Shown here: positions 11,573-17,706 of the stretch, one piece after another
Layout: each line of letters begins with the position of its first letter
How positions within the stretch are numbered: the first letter of the stretch is position 1
From: Acidobacteriota bacterium
Lineage (GTDB): Bacteria > Acidobacteriota > Vicinamibacteria > Vicinamibacterales > UBA2999
Assembly: GCA_030697165.1 (NCBI GenBank)
Contig: JAUYQQ010000009.1
Coordinates: forward strand, 124,001 to 188,000
Reading direction: 5' to 3'
Length of the DNA stretch: 64,000 nucleotides
Made by a program: the position numbers and the translations under genes
Notes under the pieces: generated by a model
What the model was told of the DNA's origin: nothing
What the model saw: the letters and a program-made list of their open reading frames with translations, nothing else
Database searches by the model: none

Positions 11573-12742
11573 ATGAAGAAGCTGCGCGTGGGTGTCATTT
11601 ACGGCGGCCGATCCGGCGAGCACGAAGTGTCGGTGACGTCGGCGGCCTCGATTTTCAAGTCGATCGATCGCACGCGCTACGAGCCGGTGCCGATTCGCAT
11701 CGACAAGGACGGCCGCTGGACGCTGGCCGACCGCGCGCCGGCAGCGTTGTCGGCGGCCGAGGTCATCCAGCAGGCGCGCCTGGCGCAAGCGCGCCCGGTG
11801 CGGGCGGGCCGCGATTCGCTGTTTGTCCCCTATCCGTCGGCCGACACGCTAATCACGGTCGAACGGCGAAACTCGGCGGATGGCACCACCCCGGCGGACG
11901 TCGAACGCGCGGTGGTCACCGGTCTCGGATTGGACGTGGTGTTTCCCGTGTTGCACGGCCCCTACGGCGAGGACGGCACGGTGCAGGGGCTGCTGGAACT
12001 CGCGAACGTGCCGTACGTGGGCCCGGGCGTGCTCGCCTCCGCCGCCGGCATGGACAAGGCCGTGATGAAGGTGTTGTTTGCCGCGGCCGGCCTGCCCGTG
12101 GTCGACTCGCGCGCCTTCGTGCGTGCCGAGTGGACGCGCAACCGCGACGGCGTCCTCGCCGGCATTGCGGCGCTCGGCTACCCGGTGTTCGTGAAGCCGG
12201 CCAACCTGGGCTCGAGCGTCGGCATCTCCAAGGTGAAAGTCCTCGCCGAGCTGGTGCCTGCCATCGAGGCCGCGCTCGAGTTCGACCGCAAGGTGATTGT
12301 CGAGGCCGGCGTCATCAACGCGCGCGAGATTGAATGCGCGGTGCTCGGCAACGACGACCCCGAGTCGTCCGTGCCTGGCGAGATCGTGCCGTCGCGCGAG
12401 TTCTACGATTACGAGGCCAAGTACCTGGACGAGGGCTCAAAGAGCCTGATCCCGGCCGACCTGCCCGAGGCCACCGTGGCCGAGGTGCGCCGGCTGAGCA
12501 TCGCGGCGTTTCGCGCCATCGACGCGGCCGGCCTGGCCCGGGTCGACTTCCTGCTGTCGCGCGACACCGGCGCCATCTACGTCAACGAGATCAACACCAT
12601 GCCCGGCTTCACGAGCATCAGCATGTACTCGAAGATGTGGGAGGCGAGCGGCATCGGCTACGCGGCGCTGGTCGATCGGTTGATCCAGCTGGCGATCGAG
12701 CGCCACGCCGAAAAGCAGAAGCTCCGCACCAGCGCGTTATGA
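11573..12742 (+). CDS. ddl: D-alanine--D-alanine ligase
   Basis: 389 residues, ATP-grasp fold. VGVIYGGRSGEHEVSVTSA (about 6-24) is the N-terminal signature, HGPYGEDGTVQGLLEL the substrate loop, VFVKPANLGSSVGISKVK the ATP-binding Lys region, and YVNEINTMPGFTSISMYSKM the C-terminal metal-binding segment. Role: joins two D-alanines for peptidoglycan precursors in the cytoplasm. Length fits the longer DdlA/Van-type subgroup. The frame ends with an ATGA overlap to the next gene, so the two are translationally coupled. A palindromic repeat lies directly upstream. Confidence 0.95.
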   Translation: MKKLRVGVIYGGRSGEHEVSVTSAASIFKSIDRTRYEPVPIRIDKDGRWTLADRAPAALSAAEVIQQARLAQARPVRAGRDSLFVPYPSADTLITVERRNSADGTTPADVERAVVTGLGLDVVFPVLHGPYGEDGTVQGLLELANVPYVGPGVLASAAGMDKAVMKVLFAAAGLPVVDSRAFVRAEWTRNRDGVLAGIAALGYPVFVKPANLGSSVGISKVKVLAELVPAIEAALEFDRKVIVEAGVINAREIECAVLGNDDPESSVPGEIVPSREFYDYEAKYLDEGSKSLIPADLPEATVAEVRRLSIAAFRAIDAAGLARVDFLLSRDTGAIYVNEINTMPGFTSISMYSKMWEASGIGYAALVDRLIQLAIERHAEKQKLRTSAL

Positions 12743-13848
12743 AGCTGCTGGCCGCCACGGTGATTGCGGGGGTCGCGATCATGAACGTGGCGTCCGGCTT
12801 TAGCCGGACCGTGCCACAGCCGGCCGCGGTCCGGCTAAAGCCGGACACTACAAGCGTCACCGGCATCACGGCCGCGCCGGTGGTGGCCAGAGCCTACGAC
12901 CTCATCCTCGATGCTGACTTCGATCGGTTGAAGGCAGAGCTGCCGGCGATCTGCGATCCGTCATCCCAAGGCTTCGCCGAGACAAGCCCGGCGCCGCGGG
13001 TGGCCTGCCTGGGCCTTGAAGCGCTCAGCCTGTGGTGGCAGATCCAGTTGGATCCGGAAAGCCGCGCGCTCGACCCGGCGTTCCTGGCCAAGGCCAACGA
13101 GGCCATCGCGGAAGCGGAGCGCATGACCAAGGCAGAGCCTAACCGCGCCGAGGCGTGGTTTTACCTGGGCGCCGGCTACGGCGTGCGAGCGCAGTGGCGG
13201 GTGCACCGGGTGGACCGCCTGGCGGCGGCGCGCGACGGCAAGCGGATCAAGGAATCGCTCGAGCGCGCCCTGGCGCTGGACCCGGCCATGCACGATGCCG
13301 AGTTCGGAATCGGAATGTACCGCTACTACGCCGACGTCGCACCCGCGGTGCTGCGGTTCCTGCGCTGGCTGCTGCTGCTGCCCGGCGGCAACCGCGTCGA
13401 GGGCCTGCAGCAGCTCGAGCGCGCGGCCACGCAGGGGCAGCTCGTGAGCGGCGAGGCGCAGTTCCAGATCCACGTGCTGTACCTCTGGTACGAAAACAAG
13501 TTCCGCGAGGCGCTGGAACTGGTCAAGGGGCTGCAGCGCCGCTACCCGCGCAACCCGCTGTTCCTTCAGATCGAAGCGGAGATCCTGGATGTCTACTTCC
13601 ACGATCCCGCGGCGAGCCTCGCCGCGTCGGAACGGTTGCTGGCACTGGCGCGCGGCGGCCAGGTGCACCGGCCGGGGCCGGCCGAGATCGTCGCGCGCCT
13701 CAACCTGGCGCGGCAGCTGCGCGCCCTGCGCCGCACCGACGCCGCCATCGCCGTGCTCGACGCGATCATCGCGGCGAAGCCGGCCGCTCCCGCCGGCGCA
13801 CTCGCACGGGCCGAGCGCATGCGGCGCGAGATCAAGACGCCGGGTTGA
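12739..13848 (+). CDS. Exported TPR-like protein of unknown function
   Basis: 369 residues from ATG 12739, which overlaps the ddl stop. It has a short hydrophobic N-terminus (MKLLAATVIAGVAIMNV) and is otherwise helical and Ala/Leu/Arg-rich, with repeats resembling TPRs (for example AEAWFYLGAGYGVRAQWR and RYPRNPLFLQIEAEILD). Such proteins usually act as scaffolds. Residues about 17-38 (SGFSRT to VRLKPDTTSV) are encoded by a pair of inverted REP-like palindromes inserted in frame, just after the hydrophobic segment. The stop codon lies in another palindrome. Function unknown; the coupling to ddl hints at an envelope role but is not proof. Confidence 0.75.
   Translation: MKLLAATVIAGVAIMNVASGFSRTVPQPAAVRLKPDTTSVTGITAAPVVARAYDLILDADFDRLKAELPAICDPSSQGFAETSPAPRVACLGLEALSLWWQIQLDPESRALDPAFLAKANEAIAEAERMTKAEPNRAEAWFYLGAGYGVRAQWRVHRVDRLAAARDGKRIKESLERALALDPAMHDAEFGIGMYRYYADVAPAVLRFLRWLLLLPGGNRVEGLQQLERAATQGQLVSGEAQFQIHVLYLWYENKFREALELVKGLQRRYPRNPLFLQIEAEILDVYFHDPAASLAASERLLALARGGQVHRPGPAEIVARLNLARQLRALRRTDAAIAVLDAIIAAKPAAPAGALARAERMRREIKTPG
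12787..12851. repeat. Inverted REP pair (BIME-like) inside a coding sequence
   Basis: Left element: GTGG foot (12787-12790) then stem GTCCGGCT/AGCCGGAC (12792-12809). Right element: the same stem (12829-12846) followed by CTAC (12848-12851), thus GTAG on the other strand. Opposite orientation of two REPs around a short spacer is the classical BIME layout. Confidence 0.8.
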
Positions 13849-13887
13849 AATTCCGAATCGGGCGCGAGGGAATTTCAACCCGGCGTC
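13836..13887. repeat. 19-bp-arm palindrome at the end of the TPR gene
   Basis: Arms 13836-13854 and 13869-13887 match exactly around a 14-base loop. The gene's TGA stop (13846-13848) is in the left arm. It may also terminate the ddl transcript. Same arm tips as the repeat at 11512-11558. Confidence 0.8.
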
Positions 13888-13990
13888 CTCGACCTACAGA
13901 TCTGTGCGCGAGCAGCCGAGACGTGTTCTTGAAGGTGTGATCGGATGAGGACGATCGGCCCCTTGTTTGACAATCACAAACGCTTTGTGC

Positions 13991-14018
13991 TTGACAAGGT
14001 GAATTTCTCATCCATAAT
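13991..14018 (+). promoter_or_regulatory. Sigma-70-type promoter of the micropeptide locus
   Basis: TTGACA (13991-13996), 16 bases, then CATAAT (14013-14018). This is the closest match to the housekeeping consensus noticed in the window. It points to the two Lys/Ala-rich mini-genes and leaves a leader of about 100 bases. Confidence 0.65.
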
Positions 14019-14123
14019 CTACATCTGGTATGAGGGAGTAAGGCTCAGGCCACTGATTGTGAACACGTAAAAACAATCAGCGGTCGCCATCAGGCAAGAG
14101 TCGCCCCCCATCAGGAGAGAACA

Positions 14124-14180
14124 ATGGCGAAGAAGGCAAAGAAGGCGGCCAAGAAGGCCAAGAAGGCCAAGAAGCGCTAG
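14124..14180 (+). CDS. 18-residue Lys/Ala-rich micropeptide A
   Basis: The frame reads MAKKAKKAAKKAKKAKKR then TAG. An AGGAG ribosome-binding site ends 8 bases before the ATG. Composition is only Met, Ala, Lys and a final Arg, like the basic tails of histone H1-like and HU-type proteins, so nucleic-acid binding is a reasonable guess. A second gene 189 bases downstream encodes nearly the same peptide with different codons, arguing for selection on the peptide. No other domain. It could alternatively be a leader or part of a small RNA transcript. Confidence 0.65.
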   Translation: MAKKAKKAAKKAKKAKKR

Positions 14181-14369
14181 GCCGCTACAGGGGTGGTTCT
14201 CAACCAGGACTGCCCCACCCTTTTCACCAAGACCGCGCGCGTGAATAACTCACGTCGCGTAACGAAGCGAAGAACGCCGGCATGGACAAGCCGAGTGCCA
14301 GGCGGCAGAGGCAAGTCGTGCAGCGGCAAGGTTCTTACGCATAACCCAACCTGAAGGGGGGGATTACAA
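14181..14369. other. Spacer between the two micropeptide genes
   Basis: No additional frame can be supported. GGGTGG near 14186 and CCACCC near 14215 could pair ahead of TTTT, giving only a weak terminator candidate. The downstream half may hold a second promoter, but none was clear. Confidence 0.35.
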
Positions 14370-14423
14370 ATGGCAAAGAAAGCAGCTAAGAAGAAGGCGG
14401 CGAAGAAGGCGAAGAAGCGCTAG
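14370..14423 (+). CDS. 17-residue Lys/Ala-rich micropeptide B
   Basis: The frame reads MAKKAAKKKAAKKAKKR then TAG. A GGGGGG-containing ribosome-binding site lies 8-13 bases upstream. It shares the MAKKA start and KKAKKR end with micropeptide A, but uses different Lys and Ala codons (AAA, GCA, GCT besides AAG, GCG). A strong terminator follows 23 bases after the stop. The pair, with its own promoter and terminator, looks like a real small-protein locus. Function unknown; nucleoid or RNA binding is inference from charge. Confidence 0.65.
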   Translation: MAKKAAKKKAAKKAKKR

Positions 14424-14446
14424 TCGCTTCGTCAGCCAGAAGATCG

Positions 14447-14473
14447 AGGGGAGCGCAGACGCTCCCCTTTTTT
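14447..14473 (+). terminator. Rho-independent terminator after the micropeptides
   Basis: Stem AGGGGAGCG/CGCTCCCCT with a four-base loop, followed by an uninterrupted T run. It is the best intrinsic terminator in the window. It faces the minus-strand cyclophilin gene end and may serve only the plus strand. Confidence 0.9.
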
Positions 14474-14509
14474 ATTGCTTCTGACTGCAAGATCACCAGA
14501 TCAAGACAT

Positions 14510-16594
14510 CTACTGCCCGATCCAGCTGACCCCGTCCCAAATCCGAATCCGCTCGATCGTGTCCCACTGCTGCAGGCGGTCGACCACGTCCATGCCGGAC
14601 AAGACCTGCCCGAACACCGTGTAGCGGCCGTCCAGGTGCGGCTGCGGCGAATGGGTGATGAAGAACTGGCTGCCGCCGGTGTCGGCCCAATCGAGCGCCA
14701 TGCCCACCGTGCCGCGCAGGTAGGGCCGCTGGTTGAGCTCGTCGCGGATGGTGTAGCCGGGCCCGCCCTCGCCGTCGCCGCGCGGGTCGCCGTCCTGCAC
14801 CACGAAGTCGGGCACCACGCGGTGCAGCTGCACCCCATTGAAGTAGTTCTTGCGCACCAGGGCAATGAAATTGGCGACCGTCCGAGGCGCATCGAGCACC
14901 GCCAGCTCGATCTGGATGGTGCCGCGGCTGGTGTCGATGTACGCAGACGGGGAGTACTGCGGCGACACGAGCGCGGCCACCGCCGCCAACTCGGGCACGA
15001 TCGGCGGCGGCGCCGGCCGCATGGCCGAGACGTCGGCCGCCGGGTCAATCTTGCGCAGGTGTTCGGCGGCCCGGAGCCGGACCGCCCAATCCCGATCGGC
15101 GAGCGCCGCCAACAACAGCGGCCGCGCCGCCGCCGGATCGACCGCGACCAGCGCGTCAAGGGTGGCGGTGCGGGCCACGTAGAGCCCGTCGCGTTGCGCC
15201 AGCGTCAGCGCCTCGGCCAGCGCGGCGGCCGCGCCGGGCGCCTTGAGCGTGACCAGCGCGCGCGCCGCGGCCGCGCGCACCACCGGGTCGTCGGCCTTCA
15301 GCCGCGCCAGGATCTCGGGAACCGCCGTCGTCGATCCGATCTTGGCCAGCGCGTCGAGCACCGACGGAATCACGCGCTGGTCGCCGTCGCGCAACTGGTT
15401 GGTCAGCGGCGCCTCGGCGCGCTCCTTGCCCAGCTCGCCGAGCGTGGTCGCCAGCGCCGCGCGAACCGACCAGTGCGGATCGGGATCGAGTCCTGAGATG
15501 GCGCTGATGAAGGTGTCGGTGTCGGTGCGGGCCAGGGCTTGTAGCGCCGCCGCCCGTGCCGACGGCCACGAGGCCGACACCAGGTCGATCAGCAGATCCA
15601 CCGCGCCGGCGTGACGCAGCTGGCCGAGCGCAACAATGGCTTCGAGCTGAAGGTTCTGGCTCACCTGGGGCGACGTGATCAGCCGCACCAGCACGGCGCC
15701 GCCGCGGGTGTCGCCAAGCAGGGCCAGCCCCCGCACGGCCTGGATGCGCACGGCCAGGGGCTCGCCCGCGTTGTCGGCCATGGCGAGCAACGCGGGCCCG
15801 GCTTTCTGCTCTTTCAGCACGCCCAGGCCGCGCGCCGCGAAGGCGCGGGTCAACTGGCCCTCGCCCGTCAGCAGGGCCAGCAGGGCCGGCGCCGCGCGCG
15901 GGTCGTTGATCCGCTGCAACGCAAACGCGATCGGCCACCAGCGGCTGCGCGCCTGCCCGGTGCCGTCAATGACCGCCGCCGCGAGCGCGTCGAACGAGCC
16001 CAGCCGCACCAGCGCGTAGACGCCGAGGCGAACGGCTTCAATCGGCGGCGCCTTGGGCGCTCCCATGTCGTCGGGGTTCAGGCCGTTCAGCACACCCGCG
16101 ACGGCATGGGCGGCGACCATCGCGCCAATCGCCTGCGCTGCCGGCCGGTGGCCGATCAGCCCCAGGGCTTCAGCCGCGCGCCCCTGAATCGTCGGGTCGG
16201 TGCCGGCGAGCGCGGTGGTCAGCGCCGGCGCCGCCGAGCCGTCGCCGACCAGGCCCAGGGCGAACGCCGCCATCTGGCGCACTTCGGCGTCCCGGTCGTT
16301 TTCGAGCAGCGTCACCAGGGGCGGCACCGCCTCGGGCAGTCGCACGCGGCCGGCCGCCAGCGCCGCGCGCCGCCGCACCCGCGCTTCGCCGTCCTGCATC
16401 AGGACCAGCAGGTCGCCGCCACCGCCGCGCAGCTGGCGCTCGTCCTCGAGCTGCAGGATCCACCGCATCTTCTGGTCGAAGGCGGTGAGCGGCGTGGTCG
16501 CCGTGACCTGCGGCGCCGCCGCGGGGGCGCACGCGCCGGCGGCGAGCAACGCGACAAGCGCGACGAGCGCGCGGGGAGACTGCAATCGCATCAT
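14510..16594 (-). CDS. HEAT-repeat lipoprotein fused to a cyclophilin peptidyl-prolyl isomerase
   Basis: 694 residues. The N-terminus has a lipoprotein signal (ALVALLAAGAC, Cys near residue 22). Residues about 60-500 are HEAT/PBS-lyase-type repeats (for example DAEVRQMAAFALGLVGDGSA). The C-terminal 160 residues are a cyclophilin domain: IDTSRGTIQIEL, NGVQLHRVVPDFVVQDGDP, and GTVGMALDWADTGGSQFFIT. Role: probably an envelope-anchored protein-folding factor whose HEAT superhelix holds clients or partners. The next gene upstream overlaps by 4 bases, so the two are coupled, though their functions look unrelated. Confidence 0.9.
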   Translation of the reverse strand: MMRLQSPRALVALVALLAAGACAPAAAPQVTATTPLTAFDQKMRWILQLEDERQLRGGGGDLLVLMQDGEARVRRRAALAAGRVRLPEAVPPLVTLLENDRDAEVRQMAAFALGLVGDGSAAPALTTALAGTDPTIQGRAAEALGLIGHRPAAQAIGAMVAAHAVAGVLNGLNPDDMGAPKAPPIEAVRLGVYALVRLGSFDALAAAVIDGTGQARSRWWPIAFALQRINDPRAAPALLALLTGEGQLTRAFAARGLGVLKEQKAGPALLAMADNAGEPLAVRIQAVRGLALLGDTRGGAVLVRLITSPQVSQNLQLEAIVALGQLRHAGAVDLLIDLVSASWPSARAAALQALARTDTDTFISAISGLDPDPHWSVRAALATTLGELGKERAEAPLTNQLRDGDQRVIPSVLDALAKIGSTTAVPEILARLKADDPVVRAAAARALVTLKAPGAAAALAEALTLAQRDGLYVARTATLDALVAVDPAAARPLLLAALADRDWAVRLRAAEHLRKIDPAADVSAMRPAPPPIVPELAAVAALVSPQYSPSAYIDTSRGTIQIELAVLDAPRTVANFIALVRKNYFNGVQLHRVVPDFVVQDGDPRGDGEGGPGYTIRDELNQRPYLRGTVGMALDWADTGGSQFFITHSPQPHLDGRYTVFGQVLSGMDVVDRLQQWDTIERIRIWDGVSWIGQ

Positions 16595-17706
16595 AGGGAT
16601 AAGTGCCGCAACGTCGCCTGGTCAATCCGATCGCGAACGATGTTCACGCCAATACCGGGTCCGGTCGGCACGGCGATGGTGCCGTCGGGGCCGATGTCGA
16701 TGGCCGGTTCAATGAGGTCCGCCTGGTAGTAACGCCTGCTGGCCGAGATATCGCCCGGCAGGGTGAAGTTCGGCAGGCTCGCGAGGTGGAGGTTGTGGGC
16801 GCGGCCGATGCCGCTTTCGAGCATGCCGCCGTGCCACACCGGGATGCCGTTGGCCGCGCACAAATCGTGCAACTCGATCGACGCGCGATGGCCGCCGACG
16901 CGGCCCGGCTTGATGTTGATGATCCGGCACGCCTTTGCCGCGATCGCGTCGCGGGCAATCCGCACGGTGTGAATGGACTCGTCGAGGCAGACCGGCGTCT
17001 TGATCTGCTGCTGCAGCACCGCGTGATCCATCACATCGTCGTAGTCGAGCGGCTGCTCGACGAGCAGCAGGTTGTACGGATCCAGGCGGGCCAGCAGGTC
17101 GGTGTCGGCCAGCGAGTATGCGGCGTTGGCATCGACCTGCAGCGGGATGTCGCCGAACCTGGTGCGAATGCGGTCCACGGCTTCGATGTCCCAGCCCGGC
17201 TTGATCTTGATCTTGATGCGTTGGTATCCCGCCGCGAGTTCGCGCTCGACCTTGTCGAGCAGCTGGTCGTAGGAATCCTGGATGCCGATGGAGACACCCG
17301 ACGCGATGCGATCGCGGGTGCCGCCCAGCACCTGCGAGAGCGGCTGCCCGATGCTGCGGGCGTAGAGGTCCCACGCCGCCATCTCGACGGCGGCCTTGGC
17401 CATGTTGTGGCCGCGAATGCGGTGCAGCGCCGGGAACACGTCGCGCGGGTGCGCGAAGGCCTGGCCGAGCATCAGCGGCGCGATGAAGCCTTCGATGATG
17501 TGCCAGACCGTTTCGGTGGTCTCGCTGCTGTAGTAGGGATTGGCCTCGGCCACCGATTCGCCCCAGCCTTCGTGCTGCTTTCCGCCGTGCTCGCCGGCAA
17601 CGCGGACCAGCACGAACGTGCGGTCGTAGGATCGGCCGAAGCTCGTCTCGAAGAAATGGACCAGCGGCAGGCGGCACAGGAACAACTCGATCTTCTCGAT
17701 CTTCAC
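16591..17706 (-). CDS. Enolase-superfamily enzyme: o-succinylbenzoate synthase / N-acylamino acid racemase type
   Basis: 371 residues. The muconate-lactonizing subgroup residues are visible: KIKIK in YQRIKIKIKPGWD (catalytic Lys pair, about 163-165), metal ligands in VDANAAYS, EQPLDYDD and CLDESIH, and the second-site Lys in INIKPGRVGG. The N-terminal capping segment (FFETSFGRSYDR) matches MenC type 2/NAAAR proteins. No other menaquinone genes are nearby, so the choice between OSBS for menaquinone and racemase for amino acids is open. Start is GTG at 17706, 8 bases after a TATAGT -10 box, hence probably leaderless. Confidence 0.85.
   Translation of the reverse strand: MKIEKIELFLCRLPLVHFFETSFGRSYDRTFVLVRVAGEHGGKQHEGWGESVAEANPYYSSETTETVWHIIEGFIAPLMLGQAFAHPRDVFPALHRIRGHNMAKAAVEMAAWDLYARSIGQPLSQVLGGTRDRIASGVSIGIQDSYDQLLDKVERELAAGYQRIKIKIKPGWDIEAVDRIRTRFGDIPLQVDANAAYSLADTDLLARLDPYNLLLVEQPLDYDDVMDHAVLQQQIKTPVCLDESIHTVRIARDAIAAKACRIINIKPGRVGGHRASIELHDLCAANGIPVWHGGMLESGIGRAHNLHLASLPNFTLPGDISASRRYYQADLIEPAIDIGPDGTIAVPTGPGIGVNIVRDRIDQATLRHLSL

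Follow-up and report, generated by a model that had tools for sequence, protein, structure and literature searches.

Lysine- and alanine-rich micropeptide frames, often paired, appear to be conserved genes across the Vicinamibacterales

We analyzed a 64,000-nucleotide stretch of a Vicinamibacterales genome (G000:C9:124001-188000, G000 being the window's own genome; hereafter the window) that carries two tiny frames, ORF1 and ORF2, encoding nearly the same basic peptide. Substitution patterns among relatives show such frames to be under selection at the protein level, and the comparative evidence leaves us nearly certain that they are genuine translated genes. They would represent a micropeptide family that is invisible to gene callers and, as far as our searches reach, unnamed. 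A preliminary description, made from the letters alone, had proposed the pair as genes; reading of positions 13501-15000 confirmed both frames within 14124-14423, ORF1 with 18 codons (MAKKAKKAAKKAKKAKKR) and ORF2 with 17 (MAKKAAKKKAAKKAKKR), each closed by a stop codon. They are the sole frames in the 64 kb, on either strand, to pass a filter that asked for an ATG start, 12-60 codons, six or more Lys and a share of Lys, Ala and Arg no lower than 85%.

Relatives were collected with R1, a sequence-only model of the promoter and first transcribed bases that spans 75 columns. We opened 115 of the 133 genomes matched by R1 (18 were not opened), along with G006 and four named records, and counted loci sharing the promoter block and the first 400 bases once. 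This gave 121 nonredundant loci: 108 that were scored and 13 that were read by hand, their promoter block being cut off or carrying an indel that fails the ungapped score. Frames of the MAKK type are intact in 119 of the 121, and the two frameless loci, L131 and L136 of genus g74, are second promoter copies. The preliminary description had named a refuting pattern, frames broken in relatives whose RNA is preserved, and no such case was met. Thirty-six independent close pairs of equal length gave 104 synonymous changes versus 36 nonsynonymous ones, where a null that moves changes among equal bases expects 68% nonsynonymous (p ~4e-24). Twins within a locus encode an identical peptide in 18 of 64 loci with codons that differ by 3-9 bases, as had been argued for the window's pair from codon divergence under a conserved peptide. 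Across loci, ORF1 and ORF2 peptides coincide in 51 of 4032 comparisons, which are not independent of each other. Taken as sequence evidence, these results support the earlier interpretation of the frames as genes.

Frame statistics were taken from 170 frames in 105 loci, picked with a composition filter and a required MAK start. They leave out the 13 hand-read loci, L194 (its peptide failed the composition filter) and, for want of MAK, one spurious GTG frame each in L024 and L109. Over these frames the final Arg uses all six of its codons and Ala all four. A filter-free pick, based on a ribosome-binding site followed by ATG[GC]C only, found acidic residues in 1 of 171 frames, and that one (L095) is an apparent chance frame.

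Signals for expression surround the pair. The near-consensus promoter proposed earlier proved to be the single promoter-like site in 13500-15000 (TTGACA-16-CATAAT, matching at 11 of 12 positions; 0.1 sites on average in shuffles). ORF1 and ORF2 have this one promoter in common, so that a promoter of their own holds for the pair; a terminator-like hairpin lies in between, and expression of ORF2 therefore requires read-through or an unseen start. The window's own inter-frame hairpin fails our terminator scan because CACCC separates the stem from the T-run. The terminator reported after ORF2 is present, with 10 stem pairs and a T-run, although as a mere pattern it is hardly rarer in shuffles (three terminator-like sites in the stretch versus a mean of 1.7, standard deviation 1.2). 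Folding of the assumed transcript, 14025-14475, is more favorable than that of shuffles by 7 standard deviations. Each frame has the ribosome-binding site ascribed to it, AGGAGAG for ORF1 and GAAGGGGGGGAT for ORF2. A run of 6-8 G within GAAGGGGGGGAT makes up most of the ORF2 site and is retained in place of the canonical AGGAGG.

In relatives the terminator is a general feature. Of 103 testable loci, 98 have such a site behind the last frame (shuffled, 60/515), and of the 64 multi-ORF loci, 44 have a terminator-like hairpin behind the first (shuffled, 36/320). Two or more frames occur in 64 of the 105 loci and a single frame in 41, a few of which may owe their count to a contig end or a filter miss. 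Some families (L076, L080 and others) have an apparent ORF2 unit alone, with the spacer element and G-run site; family f8 has an ORF1-type unit with a single frame of 35-65 codons (L057, L083, L089, L075), and L118 has three frames. The spacer element, GTGCCAGGCGGCA, matches exactly in 29 of the 64 multi-ORF loci and in 15 of the 41 single-ORF loci and is possibly an RNA motif. Leader and spacer each hold conserved elements, beyond the picture given in the preliminary description.

Such elements could be taken to mean that the unit is a noncoding or leader RNA with incidental frames, or that the frames serve as leader peptides in an attenuator that senses lysine. The conserved leader helix, the spacer element in part of the loci, the Lys-rich frames and the hairpins that often follow each frame would all suit this account. 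We nevertheless consider it very improbable, given the intact frames (the two loci without them being promoter copies elsewhere), the synonymous excess and the retention of either an ORF1-type or an ORF2-type unit by single-frame loci. Moreover, beyond the last frame come a terminator and, where a next gene was found, a convergent one, which argues that the peptides are themselves the product. An attenuator leader peptide in particular was rejected for want of a co-directional gene directly downstream, together with the terminator frequency given above.

The peptides draw on a narrow alphabet. The residues in the 170 frames are K (1678), A (955), G, M, R, T, V, P and S, with two C and one N; the Lys-plus-Arg fraction is 0.55 (standard deviation 0.05). 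Asp and Glu are absent, although a single transition would turn Lys AAG into Glu GAG and 167 of the 1678 Lys codons are AAA. MAKK opens 164 of the frames (MAK being required by the picking) and KKR ends 153. Lengths run from 14 to 60 codons, mostly 14-30, and reach 65 in L075. Several lineages replace Ala with Gly (MAKKGGGKKKGGKKR), which speaks against an amphipathic helix. Short, highly cationic peptides might be membrane active or toxin like, as in a bacteriocin or type I toxin. This idea is scarcely credible here: Leu, Ile, Phe, Trp and Tyr are absent from all 170 peptides, the Gly-rich versions are ill suited to an amphipathic helix, one promoter-like site alone, on the sense strand, is found in 1.5 kb, and the unit occurs order wide with common neighbors. 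A type I toxin was rejected on the nonhydrophobic composition and on the lack of an antisense promoter-like site in 13500-15000, as judged by the sigma-70 pattern only. A phage origin was set aside after a phage collection returned no match.

We favor a proposal in which a transcription unit of about 450 nt, probably highly expressed, yields two near-identical polycationic micropeptides. These would be unstructured polycations, rich in lysine, whose charge lets them bind the backbones of nucleic acids, acting like the lysine/alanine-rich tails of H1-like proteins yet as free peptides, and they may contribute to the compaction or shielding of nucleoid DNA or of structured RNA. Two copies would raise the dose, and the leader fold and the G-run Shine–Dalgarno sequence of ORF2 would tune output. 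The alphabet, the free length and the lack of acidic residues favor a charge-based role, and wide length drift is expected of a charge polymer; to us, general nucleic-acid binding by charge has about an even chance of being the mechanism.

Several observations weigh against this proposal. A plain counter-ion need not be as exact as the 18 identical twin pairs in 64 loci. These pairs are the main indication of a degree of sequence specificity, and they might reflect a particular partner such as the ribosome, or else old gene conversion. The peptide per locus varies, with one 16-codon frame in some families and 35-65 codons in others. Of 100 high-quality genomes of the order, 11 gave no match with R1, whose strict filters miss weak ones. 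In three of these 11 (G133, G135 and G152) no frame passing the filters was found within 1.5 kb past the HEAT-cyclophilin gene; the unit may therefore be dispensable, and the pattern suggests, short of proof, that it can be lost.

With the ribosome as partner, the peptides would be ribosome-associated micro-proteins seated in a defined rRNA pocket and autoregulated through the leader fold. This reading, which we judge unlikely, would account for twins that are identical despite different codons, for the retained KKR end and for a leader fold that directly precedes the ribosome-binding site, an arrangement known in ribosomal-protein operons. Against it stand the length drift from 14 to 65 codons and the failure to find the unit in some good genomes. 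No Pfam family was matched at E 0.001 by three members of 23-32 aa, which may tell against the ribosomal reading too, although profiles of this kind perform poorly on short, biased peptides. bTHX, bS22 and eL41 are tiny basic ribosomal proteins. The micropeptides are likewise very short and very basic; they gave no sequence match to these proteins in the scans made, and their length is not fixed.

The role suggested in the preliminary description, that of a free-standing H1-like tail which might bind DNA, RNA or phosphate, would suit the peptides. Profile scans took longer members, the window's own 17-18 aa peptides falling below 20 residues and not being included. Two of three long members had H1-like families (HC2, Burkholderia H1-like) as their best profile matches, far below cut-off and amid unrelated noise, and the third matched noise alone. 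Against PF07382, NF038052 and NF038053 the long members remained under the curated cut-offs, with E 0.07 or worse and best scores of 13.7 versus 40 bits (Pfam) and 12.6 versus 80 and 9.4 versus 135 (NCBIfam). NCBIfam gave no family at E up to 10 for the 23 and 26 aa members, short biased sequences again being poorly served. Chlamydia Hc2 and the Bordetella and Burkholderia H1-like proteins (PF07382, NF038052, NF038053) are likewise lysine rich, of low complexity and variable in length, and they bind DNA; they are usually about ten times longer than the micropeptides. In Hc2, length varies with repeat number over 165-237 aa (excerpt of PMC2848022).

In Pseudomonas aeruginosa the H1-like, DNA-binding AlgP, with a 154-residue KPAA-rich C-terminal domain, is found on polyphosphate granules (excerpts of PMC9239181). 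The micropeptides have the composition of this H1-like tail in common and correspond to the basic tail alone, mostly 14-30 residues long. By analogy, their partner might be polyphosphate or another polyanion, with the peptides organizing granules as AlgP does in Pseudomonas. Apart from this similarity in kind nothing in the locus points that way, its neighbors being TGT, D-Ala ligase, TPR, HEAT-cyclophilin, deoxynucleoside kinase and carboxyl transferase genes, and we regard such a partner as improbable.

Actinobacterial HU (HupS) and topoisomerase I carry lysine-repeat tails fused to a folded domain; the lysine repeats are shared with the micropeptides, which are free peptides rather than fused tails. 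Four HU-family proteins found in the window's genome have no lysine-repeat tail. The topoisomerase I of that genome (Pfam) has a K/A tail at its end. The same genome encodes, at a distance of about 2 kb from an HU gene, a 249-residue protein (L002:1474-2223, G000:C10) whose long N-terminal half is K/A rich and H1 like and whose end is a DUF6335 region. The matches listed by an open-access literature search held no report of these peptides.

The leader contains two candidate helices, P1 (GCUCAGC/GCUGAGC) and H0 (GGGUGG/CCACCC), which were named by hand from single folds and then counted, and so derive in part from the same sequences. In 75 leaders they are paired in 81.5% of cells, compared with 28-47% in a control with partners slid, and 33 cells are altered on both sides. 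H0 is the top 5-pair helix in 32 ungapped bases (81 distinct sequences of 108 scored loci). Three of five measures exceed all 500 shuffles; double-change pairs (107/500 shuffles) and further pair types (93/500) show no excess over the control. Folded singly, neither L083 nor L029 clearly exceeds its shuffles in stability (30/200 and 163/200 as good), and RNAalifold returned no structure on the gappy leader alignment. P1 and H0 interleave and would thus form either a pseudoknot or a switch between two alternative folds. We consider P1 well supported by these comparisons and a leader pseudoknot likely in many relatives; H0 is poor in the window genome's own leader. Rfam 15 gave three matches at E up to 1 in 12000-17000 of the window, none inside the unit, and no gathering match in the loci of six relatives. 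A leaderless ORF in the leader (ATGAGGG...) was rejected, as its frame stops after three codons here and is missing where the motif reads GTGTG. An inverted repeat over the -10 as operator amounts to a five-base match only.

Conservation extends to the surroundings (Table 1). The recurrent gene order is TGT, D-Ala ligase, TPR, the unit, convergent HEAT-cyclophilin, deoxynucleoside kinase and an acetyl-CoA carboxylase-type carboxyl transferase (Pfam). In 204 fetched loci, a redundant set with many short flanks, HEAT-cyclophilin was found 190 times, D-Ala ligase 136 times and TPR 121 times. The persistence of MAKK...KKR frames beside the same neighbors, put forward earlier as a check, was thus observed in most loci. 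Alignments and gene content show promoter, ribosome-binding sites, terminator and neighborhood to be conserved through most of the order.

Table 1. Features of the micropeptide unit and its flanking genes, in window coordinates
Feature	Position	Strand	Remarks
Sigma-70 type promoter	13991-14018 (-35 TTGACA 13991-13996; -10 CATAAT 14013-14018)	+	In conserved 75-column block
5′ leader	14025-14123	+	P1 and H0 helices; transcription start near 14025 is an estimate
Helix P1 in leader	GGCTC 14042-14046 with GAGTC 14098-14102	+	
Helix H0 columns	14034-14039 with 14050-14055	+	Weak in window's genome, seen in many relatives
ORF1 ribosome-binding site, AGGAGAG	14113-14119	+	AGGAG type, retained in relatives
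ORF1, 18 codons, MAKKAKKAAKKAKKAKKR	14124-14180	+	
Terminator-like hairpin, then CACCCTTTT	14190-14224 including T-run (hairpin 14190-14216)	+	Between both frames
Spacer element, GTGCCAGGCGGCA	14295-14307	+	Upstream of ORF2; exact in some relatives
ORF2 ribosome-binding site, G-run GAAGGGGGGGAT	14353-14364	+	Retained in many relatives
ORF2, 17 codons, MAKKAAKKKAAKKAKKR	14370-14423	+	
Intrinsic terminator after ORF2	14446-14475 (stem 14446-14469, then T-run)	+	
HEAT-repeat/cyclophilin gene (PF13646, PF00160)	14510-16594	-	Convergent neighbor, syntenic marker
TPR protein gene	12739-13848	+	Upstream neighbor; in many, not all, relatives

Vicinamibacteria are soil and water bacteria. A DNA search with the whole unit matched 39 of 40 genomes including the window's own, many of them weakly. 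The promoter and first transcribed bases are the best-conserved part, the 27 loci chosen for the R1 model aligning gap-free over all columns. R1 matched 133 of 162 genomes of the order (the window's own included) and 89 of the 100 good ones, once per genome except for two copies each in four genomes of genus g74. In one of these (G126) a promoter and leader copy, L136:1465-1582, lies between ftsA and ftsZ (Pfam) without a micropeptide, and the L131 copy in G122 shows a start that again resembles that of ftsZ; this amounts to a natural promoter transplant in the genus. For the window's genome no 16S rRNA match was returned, by a search that matched in 9 of 14 control genomes.

Over 396 genomes spread across the phylum R1 matched 41, all within the order; with strict filters it had no match in four class members outside the order or in the roughly 350 remaining genomes (the 396 less 46 nearer kin). 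In the four class members the family was nevertheless reached by other routes. Their HEAT-cyclophilin gene led to the convergent frames MAAKKKAKKAAKKKK, MPAKKKAAKKATKKKK and MAAKKAAKKAAKKKK, and the fourth genome encodes MPAKKKASKKATKKKK about 3 kb from its HEAT-cyclophilin gene. A DNA query running from promoter to start codon in one of the four matched all four, which have in common the -35 (CTTGACA) and the G-run ribosome-binding site GAAAGGGGGGAT. In one of them (G223) a second lysine-rich frame, L224 ~1754-1804, ends in KKKR behind its own G-run, and the twin arrangement may predate the order. Promoter-type queries did not find the unit in the ~350 other phylum genomes; promoter-free peptides were not searched outside the class. 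One weak match outside the class, in G369 and the sole other among the 396, was rejected as chance, no such frame lying behind it.

An exact-match scan of one genome per species found at least 64 stretches. Their titles are acidobacterial but for three, which name Cyanobacteria, Acidimicrobiia and Bifidobacterium breve. The records JAIEMQ010000038.1, VFZG01000003.1 and CALQBJ020000003.1 are probably mislabelled bins, apparently G007, G004 and G058 of the order.

At 14-20 codons, genes are too small to pass the size limits of routine annotation, and low-complexity filters hide such micro-genes a second time. A micropeptide family whose promoter, leader fold, terminator and neighbors can be traced along with it through an order and on into the class offers a clean test case for the extent of conserved genes missed by annotation. 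Its twins, with matched peptides and diverged codons, make selection visible, and the family is testable in cultured members such as Luteitalea. We advance only tentatively, as unlikely in its entirety, the view that these are class-wide free-standing micro-histones or ribosome-binding polycations, mostly of 14-30 residues, with matched twins and autoregulation by a leader pseudoknot. Should they bind DNA or RNA, hardly any natural bacterial protein that binds chromatin or ribosomes would be smaller.
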